Virus record (IMG/VR): IMGVR_UViG_3300025892_000041
Coordinates: 1 to 44,046 of that record
Source of the DNA: a virus
Length of the DNA: 44,046 nt
Reading direction: 5' to 3' (one strand)
The position numbers were made by a program, and so were the translations under genes. The notes under the pieces were generated by a model. It ran no database searches. It was not told where the DNA came from and worked only from the letters and a program-made list of their open reading frames with translations. Of this stretch, positions 4,360 through 43,823 are shown piece by piece. Positions within the stretch are counted from its first letter, which is position 1, and every line of letters begins with the position of its first letter.

Positions 4360-4389
4360 AATATACGAAAGATATCTCAGGAAACCAAA
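4360..4389 (-). promoter_or_regulatory. Host-type promoter upstream of 4056-4319
   Basis: TTTGG, 18 bases, GTATATTTA on the minus strand. The spacer contains GATATCTTTC, shared with the promoter at 6357-6386, giving a small ATAT-N7-ATAT dyad across the -7 box. It overlaps the end of the upstream gene at 4377-4823. Confidence 0.7.
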
Positions 4390-6356: not shown

Positions 6357-6386
6357 AATATACGAAAGATATCTCGGGTATCCAAA
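6357..6386 (-). promoter_or_regulatory. Host-type promoter upstream of the ligase operon
   Basis: TTTGG, 18 bases, GTATATTTATG on the minus strand, with GATATCTTTC inside the spacer. It lies directly downstream of the terminator at 6396-6426 and so opens a new transcription unit. Confidence 0.75.
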
Positions 6387-6395
6387 TATTTTGGC

Positions 6396-6426
6396 AAAAA
6401 AAGAAAGGTGCTGTTAAGCACCTTTC
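6396..6426 (-). terminator. Intrinsic terminator after 6451-6681
   Basis: A perfect 10-bp stem (GAAAGGTGCT / AGCACCTTTC) with a four-base loop, followed on the minus strand by seven T residues. It ends the transcript coming from the outer-membrane and small membrane protein genes. Confidence 0.92.
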
Positions 6427-6450
6427 CCTAAAAAATATGTTATTTTAAAC

Positions 6451-6709: not shown

Positions 6710-7120
6710 TTAAAATTTAAGACCTACGCCTAACATTAAGTTAGTCGTTTTCTCACCTGTGTTGTAAACAACTTTAGGATCTACAAAAATTCCTTTGTGG
6801 ATCGTAAACATTTTACCAAGACCTAAACTTAACATATCAGTGTCTAAATTAGGTGCTGATGCATAAGCAAAATATCCATTAAAGAAATATCTTGCATGTA
6901 CGTCAATAACTTGATCAGCAGTTGAATCAGCTTGTGAAATATTCAAACCTACCATAAGGTTATCAGTTACACCATATCCAACTGTTGGGTTTACGGACCA
7001 CTCAGTCCATGCTTGTCCAGAAATGTCACCTGTACCTACGTAAAAGTCACCTTTCTCCTGTGCGTTCACTCCAAAGACTAAACCTAGTCCTAAAGTTAAA
7101 CTCAAAATCATTTTTTTCAT
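6710..7120 (-). CDS. Exported outer-membrane beta-barrel protein (136 aa)
   Basis: It has a clear signal peptide (M-K-K-M-I-L-S-L-T-L-G-L-G-L-V-F-G-V-N-A, cut before Q-E-K), then alternating aromatic/polar strands (N-P-T-V-G-Y-G-V, L-M-V-G-L-N-I, A-R-Y-F-F) and a C-terminal G-V-G-L-K-F with terminal Phe, the outer-membrane insertion signal. It resembles small host outer-membrane proteins of Bacteroidota. A phage may use it to alter receptors, block superinfection or strengthen the envelope before lysis; that is inference. It has its own long leader (7121-7312) rich in palindromes, unlike other genes here. Confidence 0.85.
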   Translation of the reverse strand: MKKMILSLTLGLGLVFGVNAQEKGDFYVGTGDISGQAWTEWSVNPTVGYGVTDNLMVGLNISQADSTADQVIDVHARYFFNGYFAYASAPNLDTDMLSLGLGKMFTIHKGIFVDPKVVYNTGEKTTNLMLGVGLKF

Positions 7121-7144
7121 TTTATTGATTTTAATTAATAAATA

Positions 7145-7167
7145 ATATATAGGACCGTCCTATATAT
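7145..7167. repeat. Perfect 11+1+11 palindrome
   Basis: ATATATAGGAC and GTCCTATATAT flank a single C, about 25 bases upstream of the ATG of the outer-membrane protein. It could be a protein operator or a hairpin near the ribosome entry site. Confidence 0.85.
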
Positions 7168-7172
7168 GTTAA

Positions 7173-7193
7173 TATGTGAGACTATCTCACATA
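7173..7193. repeat. Perfect 9+3+9 inverted repeat
   Basis: TATGTGAGA and TCTCACATA flank CTA. It lies 5 bases from the preceding palindrome, so two dyads are nearly adjacent. Confidence 0.85.
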
Positions 7194-7277
7194 AATTTTT
7201 ATACTTTCTTGGAAAAACGTAGCGAATGCCACTTTTGTGCGGCATCCATAACATTTTCCTCAAATGTATGTTCATAA

Positions 7278-7299
7278 TGTACAAAATAGAATTTGTACA
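7278..7299. repeat. Perfect 8+6+8 inverted repeat
   Basis: TGTACAAA and TTTGTACA flank six bases. The geometry is typical of a dimeric helix-turn-helix operator. It lies 15 bases downstream (minus strand) of the terminator T-tract, where a promoter for the outer-membrane gene would be expected. Confidence 0.8.
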
Positions 7300-7312
7300 A
7301 CCACACTAAATT

Positions 7313-7343
7313 AAAAAACTTACGCAATTGTGAACAATGCGTA
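7313..7343 (-). terminator. Intrinsic terminator after 7354-8160
   Basis: On the minus strand TACGCA and TTGT pair with ACAA and TGCGTA (one bulged base), followed by AG and six T residues. It starts 10 bases after the stop of the upstream gene. Confidence 0.82.
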
Positions 7344-7353
7344 GTTCATAACT

Positions 7354-8160
7354 TTATTTTATTAATCTTTTAAATTGTTCCTTTAGAGTTTCACCTCTCC
7401 AGTTTACTGCTTCTTCAAATGCACCTGATGCTGATTCTTTTTCTATAGCACTATCACCTGCTGCTGCATCACTTAAATCTACACCAATATTTTCTTCTTC
7501 CATATAATCAGCTCCAGTTTCATAGTTAACTGAGAAGAATTCTTCAAATTCATCTTTAATATCTTCATCAGAAGCACCTCTAATATCTTCTATATGAGTT
7601 TTAACAAAATCAACTAAGATTTTATCATCCATTCCTGGAAATAATGATTTTATTTCTTTAACTTTGTCTAATATCATATTCATATTTTCTTCTTTTAATT
7701 CTTTATTTTCATCAACAGGACCATACATTGTAGCTGCAGACGCTAATTGATTAGCTAATTGATCTACCATACTTCTAATTCCTGTATTTTTTATTTCAGA
7801 CCAATCACCATCATCTTCATACCAAATATAAGCATAATCGGCACCATAACCATCAATGTGTTTAGCCATTTCAAGTAACGCATCTTCCCAATCTAATTGA
7901 TCTCCAGTTCCTAGATCTCTACCAAGTTCTATTTTATCAGGATTCCTTTTGTTATTTGGAAAAACGTTAGATACTATATCACCATCATCTTCAAAATATG
8001 AAATATATCCTTTATTTGCTACATCTCTAGCTCTTTTATTTCTACTATAGTATGTATCTAATATTTTTCCTAAATGATCAGGGTAACCATCATAGTGATT
8101 ATAAGTAGTAGTTAATACTCCATCATCATCTAAATACCCTATAAGTGCTCTTGTTGCCAT
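7354..8160 (-). CDS. Phage protein with N-terminal 'ATRALIGY' domain, 268 aa
   Basis: The first 120 residues (M-A-T-R-A-L-I-G-Y, then Y-N-H-Y-D-G-Y-P-D-H-L-G-K-I-L, later Y-A-Y-I-W-Y-E-D-D-G-D-W) match a widespread but uncharacterised phage family that begins M-A-T-R-S-x-I-G and has a W/Y-D-G-Y-P motif. The second half is acidic and helical, ending in W-R-G-E-T-L-K-E-Q-F-K-R-L, and appears to be a separate extension. It follows the 239-residue gene by 6 bases and is the last gene before a terminator. Its role is unknown. Confidence 0.8.
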   Translation of the reverse strand: MATRALIGYLDDDGVLTTTYNHYDGYPDHLGKILDTYYSRNKRARDVANKGYISYFEDDGDIVSNVFPNNKRNPDKIELGRDLGTGDQLDWEDALLEMAKHIDGYGADYAYIWYEDDGDWSEIKNTGIRSMVDQLANQLASAATMYGPVDENKELKEENMNMILDKVKEIKSLFPGMDDKILVDFVKTHIEDIRGASDEDIKDEFEEFFSVNYETGADYMEEENIGVDLSDAAAGDSAIEKESASGAFEEAVNWRGETLKEQFKRLIK

Positions 8161-8166
8161 ATTATT

Positions 8167-8886
8167 TTAATATTTATATTCTTCTTCATCCATTGTAGAA
8201 TTCATTGAATTATCTGGCGCATCATGTGGTTCTACATTATATTCATCAACAATTTCTTTTTTAGCTTTTTTCTTACCATTTACTTTGTCTAATTGTTTTT
8301 CATATAATTTTTTAGACCTTTCTAAGAGTTTAATTTCTTTTTGCATTTCTTTAACTCTTTTCTTATCTATTAATTCTGATAGATTTTCATCTTCTTGAAC
8401 CATATTAATTCTACTATTTTTAGCTTCAATAGCTTCATCAATAGCATTAATTTTAGCTTCTAAAGTAGTAATAGCTCCTGCTTTATCTATTTCAGCTAAT
8501 TTTTTATCTAAATCAGATTTTTTACCTTCGTTAATAACACCTTCAGTGATTGGAGTTAATATATAATCTCCATCTTTATGTTTTTTAACTTTAGACATTG
8601 CATCAATGATTTTCATCATTTTTAATTTTGATATACCTAATTCATCTGCTAAGTCTTCAAATGGATCTTTTCCTGCTGCTCCACCTTCATCTGAAAGTAC
8701 TTTTTCTACTTTTTTCTCAACATCTTTTTCATCTACTTTATCTTCAGCTTTTTTAGCTTCATAAGCAGCTTGTACACTTTCTAGTGTTGGTAATGGCTCT
8801 CCAGTTTTTCTAGTATCATATCCTGGGGCATTTTCGTTTAATAACGTTTTTTCGCTAACAAACTTTTTAAGGTCAAAATTATCCAT
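8167..8886 (-). CDS. Charged coiled-coil protein, 239 aa
   Basis: It is highly charged. It opens with F-D-L-K-K-F-V-S-E and L-L-N-E-N, then a Lys/Glu-rich helix (residues 45-70), a compact L-A-D-E-L-G-I-S-K-L-K-M-M-K-I-I segment, and a long coiled coil (about 120-210). The F-D-L-K-K-F start and the Asn-Glu motif resemble the N-terminal tags of other proteins in this genome (compare 11337-11714), suggesting a shared processing or scaffold-associated region; this is speculative. It carries the late element AATATTTATAACAAAAT directly in front (8895-8910), so it is probably a late, virion-associated gene. Confidence 0.75.
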   Translation of the reverse strand: MDNFDLKKFVSEKTLLNENAPGYDTRKTGEPLPTLESVQAAYEAKKAEDKVDEKDVEKKVEKVLSDEGGAAGKDPFEDLADELGISKLKMMKIIDAMSKVKKHKDGDYILTPITEGVINEGKKSDLDKKLAEIDKAGAITTLEAKINAIDEAIEAKNSRINMVQEDENLSELIDKKRVKEMQKEIKLLERSKKLYEKQLDKVNGKKKAKKEIVDEYNVEPHDAPDNSMNSTMDEEEYKY

Positions 8887-33787: not shown

Positions 33788-34093
33788 TTAACAAGATGCT
33801 CCGCTAGGTAAATTATTTTTGTATCTATTTGCTGGATCTTGTTGTCCAAAAGATTGTTCACCTAATTGTGATGTTGAAGGTGTAGAGTAAGCTATAGCAG
33901 ATGCCCCAAAATTAGTGTATGCTGGTGTTGTATTTTCAGGGGTACCAATATTAGAGTACTCATTATGTAGTAATGAATTACCTACAACACTTACATTATC
34001 TGGTGTAGATGGACTTGAATTTGGAGAAACGGGTACAGCTAATGTTGAACCGTTTGTTTCAAACTTATTTTTTAATGAATTTTCTGATGCCAT
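33788..34093 (-). CDS. Small Ser/Asn/Pro-rich virion-associated protein
   Basis: A 101-residue low-complexity protein (V-S-P-N-S-S-P-S-T-P-D-N) with no domain. It follows the tape measure gene and has a late-type element (34122-34136) in front; the leader is 28 bases. A small tail or baseplate part is likely from the context alone. Confidence 0.7.
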   Translation of the reverse strand: MASENSLKNKFETNGSTLAVPVSPNSSPSTPDNVSVVGNSLLHNEYSNIGTPENTTPAYTNFGASAIAYSTPSTSQLGEQSFGQQDPANRYKNNLPSGASC

Positions 34094-34121
34094 TTTTGTA
34101 AATTTTAATTATTAATTATTG

Positions 34122-34136
34122 TTTATTATAAATATT
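34122..34136 (-). promoter_or_regulatory. Late-promoter-like element upstream of 33788-34093
   Basis: AATATTTATAATAAA on the minus strand, overlapping the last codon of the tape measure gene. Confidence 0.6.
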
Positions 34137-36717
34137 AACCCATTTTAGAAGTTACAAGTGCTAATGATTTTCCAACTTTATTCCCATCCATAAACACATC
34201 ACCACCTTTTCTAACTTCTGATATTAATTCTTTTAGTAAAGCAACAACTTCTCCATTATTACCTCCCCCTAAACTAGTTCCACCAACTATAACATCATCT
34301 TTTCTAAACTTTTGAATTGGTTGACCTGGTCTTGAAATAAAATCTGCTGCCATACCACCTCCTCCAGTTGCTGCTTTATAATCTTTAGCTGCTAAACCTG
34401 CATCTATTGCTACTGATGCAGCTGTTCCTAATCCAGGAATAGTACTAGCTGCTCCTGATGCTAATTCTAATGCAGCTCCTGCAAAATCTCCCTTCATTGC
34501 TCTTTGTATACCAAACCCTACACCCGCTAATAAACCAATAACTGGTATCTTTTTAAGTAGTGATTTACCAACAGCTTTTACTCCTAATTTTGCACCTACT
34601 TTTAATCCTGTTTTACCTGCCATTTTACCCCCTTGCTTTGCTAATTGATCTTTTGCTGCTTTTCCAGCAAATCCTGATGCTATTTGTTTTGTTGAAAATT
34701 TTCCTGATGCTTTTGCTAATGCGTCAGGTTTTTTCTTAAAAAGACTTTTAATACCATCAAAAGTTTTAGACATAGCACCCCCTTTACCAAATACTACATG
34801 CATAGGATTCATCGCTGATCCCATCTTCATTGCTGACATGCCTATTGCTGCTCCTCCAGCTACAAATAAAGATGTAATTGGATTATCTTTTATCATTCCA
34901 AACATCTTTCCTATCATAGGTAAAACACTCATAATTCCATCTACTACTTTACCCATTACACTTGCCATAGTTTTCATCCCAGTTTGAAAAGTTGTACTAT
35001 TAACAAACTTTGAAATAGCATCTGCTACTTTAGTAGCTAAAGGTGCTAATGAATTTTGTAATACTCCTTTGGCTTGTTCTAATGCTCTTTGAGAAGCTTC
35101 AGCTGTTTTTCCTTGTTTAACTGTGTCTGCTAATTCTTTTTCAACAAGAGATGCTATAGCTTCTTTTTGGGTTTTACCTTCCTTCATTAATTGATTTATC
35201 TTTTTTTCAGCTGCTTCTCTTGTAGCTGCATCCATGTCACCAAGTTTATTTTGAAGTAAACGTGTTTGATTCATTTTATGCATTTCCTCAACACTTATAC
35301 CTAAACTATCAGCTAATGCTTTTTGTTGGATTTTATTTCCTTTAGTAGAATCATAATTTGCAGCAAGAATTCTTTCCATTTCTTTAGCTACTGTAACTTC
35401 ATCTCCTCTTAAAGAAGCAGATCTAAGTGCTTCTAAATTAAGATTTTTTCCTAATAATAATTCAGCAGCCATTTCTTTTTCAATAGAAGATTGAAAATCT
35501 AAATTTGCTTCACCCGCAGCTGCAACCTGATCTAATGTCATTCCTAATCTTTTAGCCTGGAATGCTGCTTTTGCTAATGCCTCAGGGTTGGCCCCAATAT
35601 TAGCTATTGATGATGCTGAAGCTGATGAAACTTCTTCCATTACATCATTCATACTTATAGCTGAGTCAGTTGCAAAATTTAATCCTTTTACTATTGTACC
35701 AATTTCTGTAGCTGTGTCACCAAATTCTTTTCCAGATAATGTTGATACCTTAAATAGTCCCTGTGCAGCTTCTTCACTTAAACCTAAAAAATGGGTGAAT
35801 TTTTGATAGTTATTGATTTGTTCTTCAGATAACATTACTGAAGTACCTGCTACTTTATTTAAACCTATTAATGCTGATTTAGCTTCTTCAAAATTAAGAT
35901 ATAAATTACTATCTGCCATATCTGCTAAATTATTCTTCATCATTTTAGCACTAGTATTTGCTCCCATAAATGCTTTTCCTAAATCAGCTGTTTTTTGAGC
36001 GAATTTTTTACCTAATTTTAATAATGCTTGAAAACCTTTTACCATCATAGTAATCATTGCTACAGGATCTGTTATAAATCCTATAAAACTTTTACCTAAT
36101 GATCCTATACCAGCACCTAATACTTTAAATTTACCAGTTAAACCTGATGAATTTTTAGCTACTTCTAAAGCTGCTGAATTTGCATTATCTAAAGCAGTGC
36201 TTATACTTCCTAATCCTAATTTACCTGCTACAGTTTTAAGAGCACCTAAGGCTGCCCCTGTAAGACCCATCTGACTAGTAATTTTAGCAGATAAATCTAA
36301 TTGTTCTTGCAAACCTTTTTCAAATTCATCATTATAACCTTGAACTTTTTTTAATTCATCTTGTAATGATTTTTTTTGCTTTAACTCACCTCGACCCAAC
36401 ATTGAAATTTGGTAGTTTATAGCCTTTATTTTAGATTGTCTTTGTTGAATAAGTTTAGCAGCATCAGCTTGTTTAAAAGCTCCTTCAGCTGCTTTACTAT
36501 TAGCATCTGCTAATTCTTTTGATACCTTAGCTAGAGAATTTAATGATCCTGTAATATCTTTAGCTACTGCTTTAGCTACATTATCAGTTGATGATAGTGC
36601 TTCTTTAAATATATCACCTACCTTATCAGCAATATTTCTTAAAGCATCTTCAACAACTACTGCTGTTTCTTTTGCGCCCTTTTCTGCATCTATTTGGGAT
36701 TTACTCTTTTTGGCCAT
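34135..36717 (-). CDS. Tail tape measure protein
   Basis: This 860-residue protein has a long coiled-coil N-terminal half (V-E-D-A-L-R-N-I-A-D-K-V-G-D-I-F), a central helical part with many Ala/Lys, and hydrophobic Gly/Ala segments in the last third (A-G-G-A-A-I-G-M-S-A-M, V-I-G-L-L-A-G-V-G-F-G-I), all standard for tape measure proteins that set tail length and may help DNA cross the inner membrane. Position after the tail chaperone pair and before baseplate genes is the classical one. A late element precedes it. Confidence 0.88.
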   Translation of the reverse strand: MAKKSKSQIDAEKGAKETAVVVEDALRNIADKVGDIFKEALSSTDNVAKAVAKDITGSLNSLAKVSKELADANSKAAEGAFKQADAAKLIQQRQSKIKAINYQISMLGRGELKQKKSLQDELKKVQGYNDEFEKGLQEQLDLSAKITSQMGLTGAALGALKTVAGKLGLGSISTALDNANSAALEVAKNSSGLTGKFKVLGAGIGSLGKSFIGFITDPVAMITMMVKGFQALLKLGKKFAQKTADLGKAFMGANTSAKMMKNNLADMADSNLYLNFEEAKSALIGLNKVAGTSVMLSEEQINNYQKFTHFLGLSEEAAQGLFKVSTLSGKEFGDTATEIGTIVKGLNFATDSAISMNDVMEEVSSASASSIANIGANPEALAKAAFQAKRLGMTLDQVAAAGEANLDFQSSIEKEMAAELLLGKNLNLEALRSASLRGDEVTVAKEMERILAANYDSTKGNKIQQKALADSLGISVEEMHKMNQTRLLQNKLGDMDAATREAAEKKINQLMKEGKTQKEAIASLVEKELADTVKQGKTAEASQRALEQAKGVLQNSLAPLATKVADAISKFVNSTTFQTGMKTMASVMGKVVDGIMSVLPMIGKMFGMIKDNPITSLFVAGGAAIGMSAMKMGSAMNPMHVVFGKGGAMSKTFDGIKSLFKKKPDALAKASGKFSTKQIASGFAGKAAKDQLAKQGGKMAGKTGLKVGAKLGVKAVGKSLLKKIPVIGLLAGVGFGIQRAMKGDFAGAALELASGAASTIPGLGTAASVAIDAGLAAKDYKAATGGGGMAADFISRPGQPIQKFRKDDVIVGGTSLGGGNNGEVVALLKELISEVRKGGDVFMDGNKVGKSLALVTSKMG

Positions 36718-36723
36718 AAAGGT

Positions 36724-36740
36724 ATTTTGTTATAAATATT
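36724..36740 (-). promoter_or_regulatory. Late-promoter-like element upstream of the tape measure gene
   Basis: AATATTTATAACAAAAT on the minus strand, ending 6 bases before the ATG. Identical to the copy in front of the sheath gene. Confidence 0.68.
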
Positions 36741-36748
36741 AGAAAATA

Positions 36749-37048
36749 TTATTTTCTTGATGCTTTGGCAACATATGAGGGAGGTGAAACAGTTCTTTTA
36801 GGAGGAAGTTTTGATTTATTAGGATTAGCTAAATCTATGTCATTTTTACTTTTAGGATTATTTGCTTCTGATTGTTCTTTGTAAAATTCTGCTATTTTCT
36901 TAAAAGTAAAATTACGAAGCCACATGGGCATATTATACACAGTATCCCAATCATATCCTCCTTTACCATTAAATACTATATCATGGATTTGAGAAAATAA
37001 ACTACTTCTATAAGTTAGTGCTTCACTAGGCGTCAGGGAAAAAAAAAT
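36749..37048 (-). CDS. Tail assembly chaperone, downstream frame (start-less, expressed by frameshift)
   Basis: The frame is open from 37048 down to TAA at 36749 (99 codons) but lacks an ATG until well inside; the only early candidate is a GTG at 36938-36940, in the middle of what looks like one continuous domain (L-F-S-Q-I-H-D-I-V-F-N-G-K-G-G-Y-D-W-D-T-V-Y-N-M-P-M-W-L-R-N-F). It overlaps the end of the gp26-like gene in the +1 (equivalently -2) frame, with T9 at the overlap. In many phages the gene before the tape measure is read as a fusion through such a shift. The fused product would be about 340 residues. Confidence 0.72.
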   Translation of the reverse strand: MFFSLTPSEALTYRSSLFSQIHDIVFNGKGGYDWDTVYNMPMWLRNFTFKKIAEFYKEQSEANNPKSKNDIDLANPNKSKLPPKRTVSPPSYVAKASRK

Positions 37049-37769
37049 TTAAAGAAATTGGTACATCTATTTCTTCAAGCTCATCATACTCATTAGTAAT
37101 TGTGGCCTTTAATTCTATATCAGGCTGTATTTTTACTATATGATCTCGTAATGCTTTTGCATCTCTAGCTAAAAGATAATTATCAACAAAATCTCTAATA
37201 GTTTTACCTGATGTATCTCCTTCTACTGAAGTGATTAAATATTTCATTCTAGTAGAAATTTCAGGTGATGATGATTTGTTTATTTTTTGAATACCTTTAA
37301 TTTCGGCATCAATTTCTTTATCTAAACCGTCAGTTAATAATCTAAATGTTAATTTAGTTCCTGATGATGGTAGTTCCCAATCAAATTTATTTTCTCCACT
37401 TTTAAATAAACTTTTATCAAGTTCTTTATTTTTCATTAGACTTAAATCTACTATATGTTCTTGACCTTCATATCTAATTTTATAATCTTTACCGTATCCT
37501 AAAATACGTGAAGCAATTAAAATAGCATTTTTATCACCAATTAATATATCTTTAAGTTTTACATCAGTAATAATTAAAGCTTGTAATAATTTATCTAATA
37601 CTATGCCTTTAGCTATATAATTTTGATTAGTTAATATATCTTCTTCTTTAGCAGTCATATATTTCATTTCAATCTTACCAGATTTTAATGGATGACCTTC
37701 AGGATATAATAAACCTTTTGATGGTAATTCTACTTCTTCAGTGGGGAATTTAAATTTTGATTCAGACAT
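37026..37769 (-). CDS. T4 gp26-like tail assembly protein/chaperone
   Basis: This 247-residue protein has V-E-L-P-S-K-G-L-L-Y-P-E-G-H-P-L, I-E-M-K-Y-M-T-A-K-E-E-D-I-L-T-N and L-I-G-D-K-N-A-I-L-I-A-S-R-I-L-G-Y-G, signatures of the T4 gp26 family, called baseplate hub subunit in T4, and it ends in F-F-F-P-D-A. Its place between tail tube and tape measure is where other phages encode the tail assembly chaperone. The last codons include T9 (37039-37047) and overlap a second frame. It may be expressed from the element at 37793-37808. Confidence 0.85.
   Translation of the reverse strand: MSESKFKFPTEEVELPSKGLLYPEGHPLKSGKIEMKYMTAKEEDILTNQNYIAKGIVLDKLLQALIITDVKLKDILIGDKNAILIASRILGYGKDYKIRYEGQEHIVDLSLMKNKELDKSLFKSGENKFDWELPSSGTKLTFRLLTDGLDKEIDAEIKGIQKINKSSSPEISTRMKYLITSVEGDTSGKTIRDFVDNYLLARDAKALRDHIVKIQPDIELKATITNEYDELEEIDVPISLNFFFPDA
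37039..37047 (-). promoter_or_regulatory. Homopolymeric slippery site (T9) for +1/-2 frameshift
   Basis: Nine T residues on the minus strand read TTT-TTT-TTC-CCT in the zero frame. A shift by +1 or -2 on TTT keeps perfect codon pairing and enters the downstream frame (TCC-CTG-ACG). A -1 shift would hit TGA within two codons. Confidence 0.6.
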
Positions 37770-37792
37770 AGTTCTTATTTATTAATAACTTA

Positions 37793-37808
37793 ATTTTGTT
37801 ATACATAT
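37793..37808 (-). promoter_or_regulatory. Late-promoter-like variant upstream of the gp26-like gene
   Basis: ATATGTATAACAAAAT on the minus strand differs by one base from the late element. A host-type match CTTGG-N18-GTATATT (37811-37840) lies just upstream and overlaps the terminator hairpin, so which one is used is uncertain. Confidence 0.5.
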
Positions 37809-37817
37809 ATAATATAC

Positions 37818-37843
37818 AAAAAAGCTTGACGTATGCCAAGCTT
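37818..37843 (-). terminator. Intrinsic terminator after the tail tube gene
   Basis: A 7-bp stem AAGCTTG/CAAGCTT with an eight-base loop, followed by a T-run on the minus strand (T6 including the last two stem bases). It sits 26 bases beyond the tube gene stop and would partly insulate the tube gene from the chaperone gene. Confidence 0.75.
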
Positions 37844-37868
37844 AAATGTAAAATATATTGTTTTTCTT

Positions 37869-38357
37869 TTAGAAATTTAATACACAATAATCCATTCCTA
37901 ATGTTAATGAAATATTCATTACAGTAGTATCATCATCCCAATTCATATCTCCAAATGAAGCATCTTTAATAAATGCACCTTTAATAATCCACTCAGAAAC
38001 CACATCACCTACTGGGCCCAATACATCAATTGTTAAGTCTTTTTTATAGAAATCAGAATAACCATCTCTACCTGTAACTGATTCATGATGTAATCTCGTC
38101 CACTCCATTACGGCTTGTGCTCCTGAAGGTGTAATAGGATCAAATAATTCCATTGTTAAATCATTCCATTTTAATTTACCTTTTACTTTTCTATAGGTGT
38201 TTATATGATTTAATACTATTTCATCCTGCGCGAACCCCATTCCACTAACTCCTTTAATTATATACGATGGTATACCGTCAACATACAGTATAAATCTGTT
38301 AGCTACTTTTGGTTCAAAAGCTGTGAAAAATATTTCGTTTGGGTCTAATACTGCCAT
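37869..38357 (-). CDS. Tail tube protein (T4 gp19-like)
   Basis: This 162-residue protein has V-A-N-R-F-I-L-Y-V-D-G-I-P-S-Y-I-I-K, I-V-L-N-H-I-N-T-Y-R-K-V-K-G-K, W-T-R-L-H-H-E and C-terminal W-D-D-D-T-T-V-M-N-I-S-L-T-L-G-M-D-Y, all typical of the gp19 tube family; length equals that of T4 gp19 (163). It forms the inner tube hexamers. A late element lies in front and a terminator behind, which fits high-level expression of a major structural protein. Confidence 0.95.
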   Translation of the reverse strand: MAVLDPNEIFFTAFEPKVANRFILYVDGIPSYIIKGVSGMGFAQDEIVLNHINTYRKVKGKLKWNDLTMELFDPITPSGAQAVMEWTRLHHESVTGRDGYSDFYKKDLTIDVLGPVGDVVSEWIIKGAFIKDASFGDMNWDDDTTVMNISLTLGMDYCVLNF

Positions 38358-38371
38358 TTTTGTTTTATTTT

Positions 38372-38388
38372 ATTTTATTATAAATATT
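38372..38388 (-). promoter_or_regulatory. Late-promoter-like element upstream of the tail tube gene
   Basis: AATATTTATAATAAAAT on the minus strand, ending 14 bases before the ATG. Confidence 0.68.
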
Positions 38389-38402
38389 ATCGTTTTTCAT
38401 TT

Positions 38403-40724
38403 TTATGCTGGGAAAGTTGCTCCAGTTGGTAAAATGTTAAAGTCTAGGTAGATAAATTCAGCTGTTTTGGTTGGTTGTAAATAAACAGCACCAATTAATT
38501 CATTTCTATCAATTACATCTGGTGTGTTATTTGAATTATCCATTACAACTTTAAATGCATATAAACCTTGTCTTTGTTGTACTGACTCTAAGTAAGGATT
38601 AACTTGACTTAAGAATGTATTTCTTGTAGCTGCAGTATTTTGTTCAAATACTAATGTATCAGCGATTTGAGAAATATAATTTTTAAGTGTAATTAATAAT
38701 CTTCTTACATTTACTCTATCTAAAGCACTTGCTTTAGTTTGTAATGTTTTTTGTCCAAATACTACTATTCCTTGTCCTGGGAATGAAGCTATTGGATTTA
38801 CTTTTCCAGTATATAAAGTATCTCTATTAGTATTAGTTAATTTTCTTTCTGCTTGATTAACTGCTCCTAATCCACCTCTATTAATACCTGCTGGTGCAAA
38901 CCATGGCTCACCTGCTCTATCATTATAAGCATAAACACCTGGTATCATTGCTGAAGCTGGTACCCAAACTAATTCTCTTGAATCTGGGTCAATTATCTGT
39001 AACCATGGCCAATAAGTTGCAACATATGAAGAATCAACTGAAGCTGCTTGGCTAGTTACTTGTGTTAATGAAGAATTATAATTAACTAAATCTCCTACAA
39101 ATATTGCATCTCCTCTTGTTTCACAATTTGATTGAATTGTTGTCCAACCTGCTCCTGTAGTACTATTTGCTAATATTAAACCTGGGGCTGTAATTATATT
39201 ATATCTAAAATCATCTCTATTAGCTAATAAATTAATAGCTGTAGTGTAATTTGTTCCTACTAAACCTTGAGAATCAGTATTATTAATTTCTTGGTAGAAT
39301 TTTGAAGGTGTTCCACTTCCTGTTATATCTCCTACACCATCTCCAAATGATCCAGATGCTGTAATTGGAATAGAACCTGTAAATTCTGCTTTAGGACTTC
39401 CATTATTATCAAAATAATTAGGAGTCTGCATATTTACAGATTTTACTCTTACATATCTTGAAGCATTTGGAAAAGATCCAGATGATTGTAAATAAACATC
39501 AGTTCCTGTTCCTCTTACTGTTTGTATTTGATCACCAATTACTTTTGAAACATAATTAGGGGATAAAGGATCTAATGATAGGTTTGAAAAAGTTTCAACT
39601 ACTGCTTTAGATGTTTGAGTATCATTACCTTGTCTAATTAATAGTGAAAATACTCCTGATGAAGTACTTGGATTTGTTATTTCCCATCTAAAGTTATCAG
39701 CTGATCCTGAATCTAATGTTCCATTAGCTCCTGTAGGTCCTGCACTATTCATTATATTACCATCTGCTAGTGTTTCTAATACAAAAGCTTCTTCATTTGG
39801 AATATTACTACCTATTAATGTTAATGTTAAATCACCAGTACCATTACCTATATTAGCAGCAGCAAAAGTTAAAACATCTCCTACGTTATATCCAGCTCCA
39901 TCTGCATTAACTTGAACAGCTGTTACTTCTGTAAATAAATCATCAGCAACTAATGTAAATATTGGATCAGTTCCAACTGGAGAAGCTGCTCCTCCTAATG
40001 ATGCTGAAGGAATTGTAATAGTTTCACCGAAAGAAAATCCTGAACCTGTTGTAGTAGCTGTAACATTTGAAATATTTGTTGCTGAGTCTAATTGAACTGA
40101 TAATGTTGCTGTTCCACCTCCACTTCCAATTACATTAACTGAATAAATTCCAATTGCACACTCCGCAGGTTGTGTTGTAATACTAGGTTTTAAAGCATTA
40201 AGAGTTCCTATTAATTTACCACTTGCAGATGATAAAGTAACAAGAGACGATCCTACTGTAGTTGGTACTACTGTTACACCACCTCTAGTAACAGTTGGTG
40301 CAGCCGTATAACCTGCTGCTAATACTGCTCCGTTTTCACCACCAAAATTACTTACTTGAGGAAATAAATTAGTAGAACCACTTATTAAATTTCCTGTTTC
40401 TGTTGCACTTTGTATTAAAGATGAAGTAGCAGCACTAAAAGCTCCTGGAGTTACTCTAGTTACTAATAATGTATTCCCCCCATTCTGGAAATAATTATAA
40501 GCTGAAATAGATGTAAAATATGTATATTGGTTTGATCCACTCATAAAAGTACTACCAAAATTAGCTAAATACTCTGAGTAACTAGTTACTAATTTAGGAA
40601 TATTTTGTTGACCCTTTACAGTTGGCCCAATAATTGCAGCTCCTGCTTGTATAGGACCTGCTGTTATTTGTGATTGGTCGTTTTCTCTTGCTAAAACACC
40701 CGGTGATATTAATACTTCTGCCAT
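38403..40724 (-). CDS. Contractile tail sheath protein (T4 gp18-like)
   Basis: This 773-residue protein starts M-A-E-V-L-I-S-P-G-V-L-A-R-E-N-D, with G-P-I-Q-A-G-A-A-I-I-G-P-T-V-K-G, the standard N-terminus of T4-type sheath proteins. The C-terminal part holds W-P-W-L-Q-I-I-D, Y-N-D-R-A-G-E-P-W-F-A-P-A-G-I-N-R and L-L-I-T-L-K-N-Y-I-S, the conserved sheath core. Residues about 130-300 are Gly/Thr-rich insert domains, probably surface-exposed, and make it longer than T4 gp18 (659). It shows that the phage has a contractile tail. Confidence 0.96.
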   Translation of the reverse strand: MAEVLISPGVLARENDQSQITAGPIQAGAAIIGPTVKGQQNIPKLVTSYSEYLANFGSTFMSGSNQYTYFTSISAYNYFQNGGNTLLVTRVTPGAFSAATSSLIQSATETGNLISGSTNLFPQVSNFGGENGAVLAAGYTAAPTVTRGGVTVVPTTVGSSLVTLSSASGKLIGTLNALKPSITTQPAECAIGIYSVNVIGSGGGTATLSVQLDSATNISNVTATTTGSGFSFGETITIPSASLGGAASPVGTDPIFTLVADDLFTEVTAVQVNADGAGYNVGDVLTFAAANIGNGTGDLTLTLIGSNIPNEEAFVLETLADGNIMNSAGPTGANGTLDSGSADNFRWEITNPSTSSGVFSLLIRQGNDTQTSKAVVETFSNLSLDPLSPNYVSKVIGDQIQTVRGTGTDVYLQSSGSFPNASRYVRVKSVNMQTPNYFDNNGSPKAEFTGSIPITASGSFGDGVGDITGSGTPSKFYQEINNTDSQGLVGTNYTTAINLLANRDDFRYNIITAPGLILANSTTGAGWTTIQSNCETRGDAIFVGDLVNYNSSLTQVTSQAASVDSSYVATYWPWLQIIDPDSRELVWVPASAMIPGVYAYNDRAGEPWFAPAGINRGGLGAVNQAERKLTNTNRDTLYTGKVNPIASFPGQGIVVFGQKTLQTKASALDRVNVRRLLITLKNYISQIADTLVFEQNTAATRNTFLSQVNPYLESVQQRQGLYAFKVVMDNSNNTPDVIDRNELIGAVYLQPTKTAEFIYLDFNILPTGATFPA

Positions 40725-40739
40725 TTTTTATATTGTTTT

Positions 40740-40756
40740 ATTTTGTTATAAATATT
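40740..40756 (-). promoter_or_regulatory. Late-promoter-like element upstream of the sheath gene
   Basis: AATATTTATAACAAAAT on the minus strand, ending 15 bases before the ATG. Confidence 0.68.
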
Positions 40757-40773
40757 GTGTTTTTTTTTAAAAA

Positions 40774-41028
40774 TTATTCTATTGGGGTAAATTCTCCTGT
40801 TTCTAAAGAAATATTTCCTTTACCATATTTTTTTTCTAAATCTAGAGCTATTTGTGATTCTTTTGATTGAATCTCTAATAATTCTTTTTCTAATTCTTTT
40901 TTTCTTCCATTAAGGTTCATTATAGCTATCTCAACATCTCCTACATTACCTACTAAAATTTGGAAATCTTCTCTTACTTTTTTAATATTTTCGATTTCTT
41001 CTTTATTTAAAACTTTTGCTTTTGACAT
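40774..41028 (-). CDS. Small coiled-coil protein, unknown function
   Basis: An 84-residue Lys/Glu-rich helical protein (E-I-E-N-I-K-K-V-R-E-D-F, L-E-K-E-L-L-E-I-Q-S-K-E) with the form of a short coiled coil. It sits between the neck genes and sheath, where T4 has the terminase genes; it is far too small to be a terminase subunit. A small assembly factor is possible. Confidence 0.72.
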   Translation of the reverse strand: MSKAKVLNKEEIENIKKVREDFQILVGNVGDVEIAIMNLNGRKKELEKELLEIQSKESQIALDLEKKYGKGNISLETGEFTPIE

Positions 41029-41109
41029 TACTTTTATTTTTGATTAATTATTGTTTTTTATTATCAATTATACATATTAGTAAATGTATTAAAAATAAAT
41101 ATATTTTAA

Positions 41110-42099
41110 TTACTCTTGTGAAGGAGATGGTGGTATTCTACGTGTATTAATTTTACTATTAGGTATTAATGTTGAAGGAGGATCTACATAATTTACATTA
41201 CCTGTGTGTGGGATATTTGTTCTAATAGGTGGGGGTGGATCTATATCATTTATATTACTTACCATTTCACTATTAAAAGTAATAGATGATTTAGAATTAT
41301 ATTTTTTTATTGAAGATAAATCTTTTTGAAGAATATTAGGTACTATATACCCATACATTTTTATACTAAAAGTACTTTTAACTAATCTATCTTGATCAGA
41401 TGGCATTTCAACGTTGGTAGCTACTGAATCTATCCTAGCTCTAAATTGGTATCTTTCAGGATTACCCCAATATGAATCAGATGCATAATTTATAGCTTCT
41501 ACTATTCCATTCATCTGTTCTACATAATAAGTAGAAACAATACAATCATAATTTAAAGTTACATAATCAGGAACAACAACAGCATACATATCTTTTGTTG
41601 GCTTCCTATTATTCAAAATATTAAACTTATCATAAGTGTTTTTAGTGCTATAAGACTTTTCATATACTCTATAATTATTTGGAAAATTAGCATCTAATTT
41701 ATTAGTAACATTTCTATTTTTTTCAATATTAGTTCTTTTAAAAGTAATTAAAGGCATCATTATTCTTCCTTTTCTATCTCTAAAATAGCCATCTTTTTGT
41801 ATTTGATTCCATCTTTCAGAATCAGCATAAACAACTGGAACTTCAATTCTTTTACCATTTTGGACTACAGTAGGTTTAATTACATTATTAAAATAATATA
41901 ATATAGTTTCATCAATATCATATAATCCAACTGTAAAGGGTTTTACAGTATCTCCCTTAAATGATGTTTGATTACTTCTATCAGTTCTTTGATATGCAGA
42001 ATCATTAGGATTACCTATTTCCTTAGAATAAGGGGTATGCATTTCCTTACTTATCTCTTTTTGAGATTTAGGCACTACTTTTCTTCCTTTATTTGACAT
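41110..42099 (-). CDS. Tail terminator / sheath stabiliser (T4 gp15-like)
   Basis: In this 329-residue protein the middle part has G-L-Y-D-I-D-E-T-I-L-Y-Y-F, I-E-V-P-V-V-Y-A-D-S-E-R-W, D-R-K-G-R-I-M-M-P-L-I-T-F-K-R-T and Y-D-C-I-V-S-T-Y-Y-V-E-Q-M-N, a pattern of the gp15 family that closes the tail below the neck. The first 45 residues and the last 60 (Pro-rich) are extensions compared with T4 gp15 (272). It overlaps the gp14-like gene by 11 bases. Confidence 0.85.
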   Translation of the reverse strand: MSNKGRKVVPKSQKEISKEMHTPYSKEIGNPNDSAYQRTDRSNQTSFKGDTVKPFTVGLYDIDETILYYFNNVIKPTVVQNGKRIEVPVVYADSERWNQIQKDGYFRDRKGRIMMPLITFKRTNIEKNRNVTNKLDANFPNNYRVYEKSYSTKNTYDKFNILNNRKPTKDMYAVVVPDYVTLNYDCIVSTYYVEQMNGIVEAINYASDSYWGNPERYQFRARIDSVATNVEMPSDQDRLVKSTFSIKMYGYIVPNILQKDLSSIKKYNSKSSITFNSEMVSNINDIDPPPPIRTNIPHTGNVNYVDPPSTLIPNSKINTRRIPPSPSQE

Positions 42100-42664
42100 G
42101 TTTTATACTTGATATTAATCTTTCTTCTGATATTCCTACTCTATCTGCTGGGACATAATGTGTTTCTGCTATTATAGATACATCATAACCAAAATTTGCT
42201 AAATCTGAATTTCCATAAGGGTTATAATTATTATCATCTTGATTAGGATAATTTGGGTCTTTACCTACAAATAATTGATTATTAATTAAATTATATATTT
42301 CATAATATCCATTTTCATACCATATAATATCTCCTACTTCAGGAACAACTACTCCTATTTTACCTGATCCATTAGCTTCAACACCTGCTAAATCATCTCT
42401 TAAAAATTTAAATGTACGACCCCCTGCAAAATCAATACCTAAATCAGAATTAGGTGTACTTTGGTCTTGTCTATCAATTAAAGTATTAAGTAACATAGGA
42501 GCTTCGTAATATTTTTCTTCAGCTGCTTCTCCATAAATATTAACATTAGTTTCTTCTAATCTAAATTTATAAAGTGCACATTCTTGTACTATAACATCCC
42601 ACATTAGTTCTCTACTAATGCCTCTAAACATACTTACATCTCTTGCTCCTCCAAATAATGCCAT
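42089..42664 (-). CDS. Neck protein (T4 gp14-like)
   Basis: This 191-residue protein has N-V-N-I-Y-G-E, Y-Y-E-A-P-M-L-L-N-T-L-I, L-G-I-D-F, F-K-F-L-R-D-D-L, G-D-I-I-W-Y-E-N-G-Y-Y-E-I and N-N-Q-L-F-V-G-K, matching T4 gp14-type neck proteins, although it is shorter than T4 gp14 (256). It is placed between gp13- and gp15-like genes as in T4. One base separates it from the gp13-like gene. Confidence 0.84.
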   Translation of the reverse strand: MALFGGARDVSMFRGISRELMWDVIVQECALYKFRLEETNVNIYGEAAEEKYYEAPMLLNTLIDRQDQSTPNSDLGIDFAGGRTFKFLRDDLAGVEANGSGKIGVVVPEVGDIIWYENGYYEIYNLINNQLFVGKDPNYPNQDDNNYNPYGNSDLANFGYDVSIIAETHYVPADRVGISEERLISSIKHVK

Positions 42665-42665
42665 A

Positions 42666-43823
42666 TTATCCTATATAAATTGGGTAAGGTACTGCTGCTT
42701 CAATTTTTTGTAATGATTCAGCTTCAGCTGCTTTGACTGCTAATAAATTACTTCTTGAAGTTTCATCAAAATATTCTCTTAATCTTGTAACTAATGCTTC
42801 TTTTTCAGATGTGGCTGCTGTTAATAAATCTGATTGATTTAATGTAGTTTCTGCCCCGGGAATTGGTACTTGTGTATATTTACCTCTAATATACCCTAAA
42901 ATTTCTTTACATACAGCTAAAGTATAATCAAATATCCAACTTCTACCAATTGAATTAATTTCACAATAATCAGGATTACAATAATTAACATTTGAAACAT
43001 TTGTTACATTATATTGTCCTTCAGGATATTTTGAAATTGGATTATTTCTTTCTGATAATTTTATATATTGTATATGCATACTTCCACTTCTTTGGGGTAT
43101 AGGAAATATTCTTAAATTATTATTAATTAATTCAAATGAATATTGTGATCTACGAACTTGATCACTCATTTCTATAGCTTGAATTTTTTGCATATCAAAA
43201 CTAAGAGGCATCATTACAAAATTAATCGCTGGTGAATAATTTCCCCACCCAAAAGTATCCATCATATTTACCATTCCTGTACCTGTACCTGCATAAGGAT
43301 CGAAAAATTTAACAATTGCGGGAGTTGCTTCATAAAATATTCTTTTTACCTCAATAAAATCTTTATTATCTAATCCTAAAGATTCTGATGCCCATGTTTT
43401 TAAATCATAATCTTGTTGTCCCGCTGTAACTGGAACTGATCCTGTATACCAAGTTGTAGTTCCACCTGTACCTGCTTCTTCCCCATATTGCTCTGTATAG
43501 CGTACTACACTAGCAAAATTAGGAGTTATTAATTCATGGTTTAAATTTGAAGCTGTTGGGGATCCTTCAATTGATAGATAATTTTCTCTTACTTTATAAG
43601 CATATAATTCATTACCATAGGTAGTTACGGCATCTTCAAATGCTGCATAAAAATTTAAATCTTGTAATTCAACATCCATTATAGGATAACCTAATCTTCT
43701 AGAAACATATGTTACTACTTTATCAGCATCTACTTGAAAGTCAATTTGGTTATCATAAAATCCAAAAGGTGTATCTCCAGGAAAAAATGATGATGAACCA
43801 GGATAAATAGGGATTACAGCCAT
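42666..43823 (-). CDS. Neck protein (T4 gp13-like)
   Basis: This 385-residue protein has R-R-L-G-Y-P-I-M-D-V-E-L-Q-D-L-N-F-Y-A-A-F-E-D-A-V near the N-terminus, typical of marine gp13 neck proteins, then a strand-rich middle (Y-D-L-K-T-W-A, I-E-V-K-R-I-F-Y) and Y-T-L-A-V-C-K-E-I-L-G-Y-I-R-G-K-Y before a C-terminal helix. It is longer than T4 gp13 (309). A late element directly precedes it, so it opens the neck-tail transcript. Confidence 0.84.
   Translation of the reverse strand: MAVIPIYPGSSSFFPGDTPFGFYDNQIDFQVDADKVVTYVSRRLGYPIMDVELQDLNFYAAFEDAVTTYGNELYAYKVRENYLSIEGSPTASNLNHELITPNFASVVRYTEQYGEEAGTGGTTTWYTGSVPVTAGQQDYDLKTWASESLGLDNKDFIEVKRIFYEATPAIVKFFDPYAGTGTGMVNMMDTFGWGNYSPAINFVMMPLSFDMQKIQAIEMSDQVRRSQYSFELINNNLRIFPIPQRSGSMHIQYIKLSERNNPISKYPEGQYNVTNVSNVNYCNPDYCEINSIGRSWIFDYTLAVCKEILGYIRGKYTQVPIPGAETTLNQSDLLTAATSEKEALVTRLREYFDETSRSNLLAVKAAEAESLQKIEAAVPYPIYIG

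Follow-up and report, generated by a model that had tools for sequence, protein, structure and literature searches.

A putative structured leader RNA ahead of a predicted outer-membrane protein gene pair in a T4-like phage fragment

Phage lambda offers known examples, the lom and bor morons, of small envelope-protein units that sit within a phage genome and bring along a host-type promoter and terminators of their own. The present locus resembles these morons in that arrangement; it differs from them in belonging to T4-like myoviruses, not lambdoid prophages, in consisting of a two-gene pair that is widely conserved, and in carrying an elaborate leader. Several bacterial mRNAs, among them recA of Acinetobacter baumannii and vacA of Helicobacter pylori, are stabilised by stem-loops in the 5' untranslated region (UTR) (PMC7509114). 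With the ompA-type stabilisers of E. coli the locus shares a 5' UTR hairpin, which here stands at the predicted 5' end, and an open ribosome entry site, and with the ompA case alone it shares an outer-membrane protein gene; the phage leader sequence and its setting are new, the first hairpin is much longer, the short hairpins are duplicated and stabilisation is putative. Attenuators and riboswitches offer a further likeness, in that hairpins which exclude each other precede a U run, but the phage leader has a weak terminator and no recognisable aptamer. The sigma-A promoter of Bacteroidota, finally, is built from a -33 box (TTTG) and a -7 box (TAHHTTTG), the first T of the latter lying at -12 (PMC6847099), and a motif resembling it is found ahead of the leader.

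The window, meaning the whole stretch of 44,046 nucleotides that was analysed (positions 1 to 44,046 of IMG/VR record IMGVR_UViG_3300025892_000041), is a fragment of a T4-like myovirus with genes for tail sheath, ribonucleotide reductase, DnaB helicase and ligase. The phage, an uncultured marine myovirus, probably infects Bacteroidota, as judged from the promoter type, the lack of a Shine-Dalgarno (SD) sequence and a Q that follows the signal peptide. Every protein gene assigned in the window runs on the minus strand, which places a 233-base gap upstream of the gene for a small outer-membrane protein (OMP) and downstream of gene 7354-8160 (Table 1). A tRNA-Gln(TTG) at 942-1015 adjoins a QueC-like queuosine gene at 1022-1855.

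An earlier note on this DNA had listed three perfect dyads, an imperfect stem at 7226-7245 and a terminator stem in this gap, and all of them are present, the imperfect stem within 7223-7248. Chance accounts poorly for the cluster: 0.12 perfect dyads with arms of at least 8 are expected in the gap, three or more arose in 1 of 2000 dinucleotide shuffles, and 15 shuffles of the whole window never placed more than two such dyads within 160 nt. The compact genome with which the cluster had been compared, with gaps of 0-30 bases, is a typical picture, although several gaps of 60-256 bases occur in the window. Clustered palindromes are also the one feature that would suit a replication origin or another DNA-level element, which the earlier note had raised and which we regard as most improbable: the skew runs through the region unchanged, iterons are lacking, and in relatives the structured leaders keep their place before the OMP gene with a different gene upstream. 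The best reading is instead a structured leader family, new in sequence and setting and ordinary in kind, whose function we infer. With a probability of about 0.55, the region consists of a promoter and a structured 5' UTR of about 149 nt that belong to a two-gene moron-like unit, the hairpins stabilising the transcript and leaving the start codon accessible. The palindromes would for the greater part be hairpins that evolution has kept folded in the OMP mRNA leader, where they most likely protect or regulate the small gene unit.

Table 1. Positions of the features in the window and of related leaders at other loci
Feature	Position	Strand	Sequence or description
Strong terminator closing the two-gene unit	6396-6430	-	GAAAGGTGCT-TAAC-AGCACCTTTC + T7
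Second gene of the pair, hydrophobic protein of 76 aa	6451-6681	-	conserved pairing with OMP
Small outer-membrane beta-barrel protein (OMP) gene, predicted	6710-7120	-	136 aa, signal peptide, about 8 strands
Unpaired A/T-rich stretch before ATG	7121-7144	-	no SD; from the fold
Tandem hairpin copy A, perfect dyad	7145-7167	-	ATATATAGGA-CGG-TCCTATATAT; dyad arms 11, loop 1; 27 nt from copy B
Tandem hairpin copy B, perfect dyad	7173-7193	-	TATGTGAGA-TAG-TCTCACATA; dyad arms 9, loop 3
Long imperfect hairpin at the predicted mRNA 5' end	7201-7269	-	in MFE and centroid folds
Promoter -7 box	7274-7281	-	TACATTAT; motif T[TG]NGG-N19-TAYNT, T at -12 (PMC6847099)
Perfect dyad filling the promoter spacer and edging the -7 box	7278-7299	.	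TGTACAAA-N6-TTTGTACA; arms 8, loop 6
Promoter -33 box	7301-7305	-	TGTGG; same motif
Intrinsic terminator of upstream gene 7354-8160	7313-7343	-	TACGCATTGTTCACAATTGCGTA + TTTTTT
Family II leader (hairpin, anti-SD GCTCCTT, AAUAGU-loop hairpin, SD AAGGAG)	L172:2417-2507, L178:2420-2507, L186:2429-2516, L188:1824-1916		
Family II leader, further loci	L068:3645-3734, L170:2317-2405, and others		
Family III leaders	L021, L023, L025, L115, L121, L134, L146, L193		

The promoter rests on a motif with a rigid geometry. On the intergenic minus strand of the window it occurs five times at a spacing of 19, whereas the same boxes at other spacings give one match at 23 and none at 14-18, 20-22 or 24; over all fetched loci, 177 matches at N19 compare with 17-34 at spacings of 17, 18, 20 and 21. 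The two-box geometry and the T, A and T positions of the -7 box are those of the Bacteroidota sigma-A promoters, of the Flavobacterium -33/-7 type (PMC6847099), from which the phage version differs by favouring TTNGG, by its fixed 19-base spacer and by TATATTTA without the final G; the OMP version reads TGTGG...TACATTAT. From this motif, a host sigma-A-type promoter (7305-7274) is predicted to start transcription near 7269. Further promoters of the form TTNGG-N19-TATATT stand ahead of phage genes on the minus strand of the window, at 4389, 6386, 9381 and 25237, and this form can serve as a promoter definition for the phage group. At GTATAAAAA (about 7207) a promoter of the sigma-70 or T4-late type was considered and set aside, its consensus being lost in relatives. 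Many structural genes are closely preceded by a second repeated element, ATATTTATAA, in gaps within 33788-43823 and 8167-8886 of the window; it is possibly a late promoter. In some relatives (L167, L203-L205) a T4 gp55-type sigma-like protein, recognised by eye, is encoded upstream of the cassette.

The dyad in the promoter spacer has to be considered apart from the others, since from its place in the spacer it would not be part of the RNA if the start near 7269 is right; it is therefore probably not transcribed. All five relatives retain its pairs, which have changed on both sides in two cases. A site in the spacer that borders on the -7 box is where an operator is classically expected, and the dyad stays symmetric in relatives, so that it may be a candidate operator for a regulator of the OMP promoter. 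As an account of the palindromes at large, DNA operators are nevertheless quite improbable: this dyad is the sole such site in the window, matches elsewhere with 3 mismatches being no more than chance would give; the dyad arms change quickly between relatives; and the hairpins downstream tolerate G-U pairs and change in sequence while keeping their pairing, a behaviour that fits RNA better than a DNA site read by protein. The suggestion that the palindromes are sites for several regulators could apply to the spacer dyad only.

Downstream of the predicted start, and between a promoter known by its motif only and the OMP start codon, the 149-nt 5' UTR on the minus strand would consist of the long hairpin, hairpin B, hairpin A and 24 unpaired bases. 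It folds at -46.6 kcal/mol (z -8.6; 0 of 200 shuffles as good), and its z is the most extreme of 586 minus-strand tiles, the runner-up being the tile that covers the terminator behind the 76-aa gene. In 19/19 OMP genes whose promoter matches strictly, 105-163 nt separate the -7 box from the ATG; in other genes the median is 32 (IQR 27-54, n=158). Among 51 distinct OMP leaders, 29 fold at p<=0.05 and many others do no better than shuffles. The structured leader RNA proposed in the earlier note therefore finds backing in the promoter, the long UTR, the extreme folding score, the compensated stems of relatives and the recurrence of this arrangement in many of them. An Rfam scan of the window returned the tRNA-Gln only and no leader family at gathering score, the best sub-threshold match reaching 20.9 bits against a cutoff of 65.3.

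The window's own leader family (family I) comprises five distinct sequences only, and covariation support for the leader as a whole is weak among relatives. An alternative three-way junction, in which GTGTGG pairs with CCRCAC and encloses two hairpins, fits 5/5 relatives equally well; since the -33 box supplies its first strand and the promoter spacer its second hairpin, it should not be transcribed from the OMP promoter, so it is kept as a caveat only. A leader peptide, MDAAQKWHSLRFSKKV with its stop, was noticed on the minus strand at about 7248-7198, and similar peptides occur in L003, L006 and L081; by eye it was judged non-coding, because the frame is lost (the loop has 6 or 7 nt, and L013 is out of frame) and because both L081 changes in the conserved block alter amino acids.

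The clearest signs of selection for pairing come from the short hairpins. The dyads had been taken as unrelated in sequence, which does not hold for hairpins A and B: they are diverged copies of one 27-nt unit, with identities of 20/27 in L006, 20/27 in L013 and 16/27 in the window, and L003 and L081 each keep one copy, copy A being absent. When eight hairpin copies are aligned as one, nine cells are changed on both sides, a number that 0/500 shuffles reach, and 97.5% of cells are paired. When viral contigs were searched for exact matches to the hairpin consensus, only those that carry the window's leader were hit. The terminator stem upstream is likewise retained, with two both-side changes among 5 relatives. 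The earlier note had named a lack of stem conservation in close relatives, together with a lack of transcript or protein binding, as what would refute its reading; on the side of sequence this comparison has been run and does not refute it. A plus-strand terminator at 7173-7193 was rejected, there being no plus-strand gene for it to end.

The long hairpin contains the imperfect stem noticed earlier, and a counterpart occurs in a second leader family (family III), where the N19 promoter is found in all eight leaders with a relaxed -33 box, the -7 box lies 110-134 nt from the ATG, the predicted leader measures 98-122 nt and a long hairpin stands near the predicted start. In both families this hairpin begins at most about 5 nt from the predicted +1, and a covariance model makes it common to the two: model R1, built from other phages without the window's relatives, finds the matching place in L006 (E 4.5e-5) and L003 (E 0.0018). 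In the window itself R1 reaches a weak 15.8 bits at 7207-7266, near the level of chance sites, one site in a coding region scoring 17.2. No pairs of the long hairpin changed on both sides were seen within family I or family III, and three apical pairs are broken in L081; most of its pairs do not vary inside a family, and for these covariation gives neither support nor contradiction.

The same hairpins could form an attenuator or RNA switch, in which the long hairpin competes with a terminating hairpin, GUGGC-AUUC-GCUAC-GUUUUU, under the influence of a ligand, of a protein or of the speed of RNA polymerase. The long and short hairpins are indeed mutually exclusive, the GTGGC....GCTAC pairs are retained in 5/5 family I leaders, other leaders carry an equivalent GTAGT-N5-ACTAC-GTTTTC, and CTACGTTTT is invariant in both families. 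We consider this rather unlikely all the same. The short hairpin, of 5 pairs and -6.3 kcal/mol, is weak and followed by a short U run, against longer stems and runs of 6-7 T in other terminators of the window; the long hairpin is far more stable than the short one; and neither an aptamer-like conserved loop nor an Rfam match was seen in the leader. Being the only terminator-like hairpin inside the region, this weak hairpin also makes the free small RNA suggested in the earlier note less likely.

Other relatives, which use SD sequences, have a different leader (family II), in which GCTCCTT can pair with the ribosome-site AAGGAG around an AAUAGU-loop hairpin; both-side changes are found in its two hairpins (model R2). 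A leader able to sequester the SD in these relatives is one reason to consider that the hairpins are bound by a phage or host protein controlling translation or processing of the cassette. Another is that (A)AUAGU-type loops recur in hairpins of several leader families, making up 9/23 of the six-base loops upstream of OMP genes and 11/2922 elsewhere, counts that come from related, not independent, sequences. For the window such binding is unlikely: the loops of its family vary (CGG and UAG here; UGG, UAA and GAG in relatives), and the start region is open, with no SD to hide. More broadly, it is conceivable, and put forward tentatively, that OMP leaders represent several unrelated RNA control architectures before one cassette, which would sense the state of infection or bind a shared protein and so time when the phage-encoded OMP is displayed in the outer membrane of the host.

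The product of 6710-7120 is modelled as an outer-membrane barrel on the basis of its signal peptide, an AlphaFold2 model of about 8 strands (pLDDT 72.8) and barrel matches. The OMP gene and the small hydrophobic gene stay paired across dozens of viral contigs with differing upstream neighbours, and in L081 the same leader as in the window precedes a divergent OMP type. Neither cassette gene was found in the isolated phages searched (OMP by tblastn); in bacterial genomes an OMP match was met in one contig assigned to a Nitrosopelagicus MAG, a contig that is probably viral and was misplaced in that bin. Judged by sequence motif, the pair has what marks a moron, its own promoter and terminators inside a phage genome: one terminator lies before the promoter and one after the 76-aa gene, which makes it a moron-like, independently transcribable unit, and the next N19 promoter, at 6386, comes after the closing terminator.

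Under the favoured reading of a stabilising leader, the mRNA would carry the long hairpin at its 5' end, then one or two copies of the short hairpin, and an A/T-rich ribosome entry site left open before the OMP start codon. The 5'-terminal and tandem hairpins may stabilise the transcript, a role known for 5' stem-loops of some bacterial mRNAs, and the OMP/76-aa pair would be expressed independently of the surrounding phage operons. For an uncultured group of marine phages the analysis provides a clear promoter definition and a structured leader RNA that had not been described, and it ties the group to a two-gene outer-membrane cassette. That long structured leaders recur ahead of this cassette in distant phages suggests that it matters in infection how the surface protein is controlled, and the leaders give specific sequences to test.

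Some further elements were noticed around the cassette in other loci. The family II leader model also matches before the small hydrophobic gene, at L068:4132-4204 (E 4e-6), L169:2913-2987 (0.046) and L186:2901-3002 (0.099), and the recurrence of AAUNNU-loop hairpins before that gene in many relatives suggests a shared binding factor. In another leader group (L014, L031, L166, L167, L197), repeated AAAGGTTAT words occur upstream of the OMP gene.
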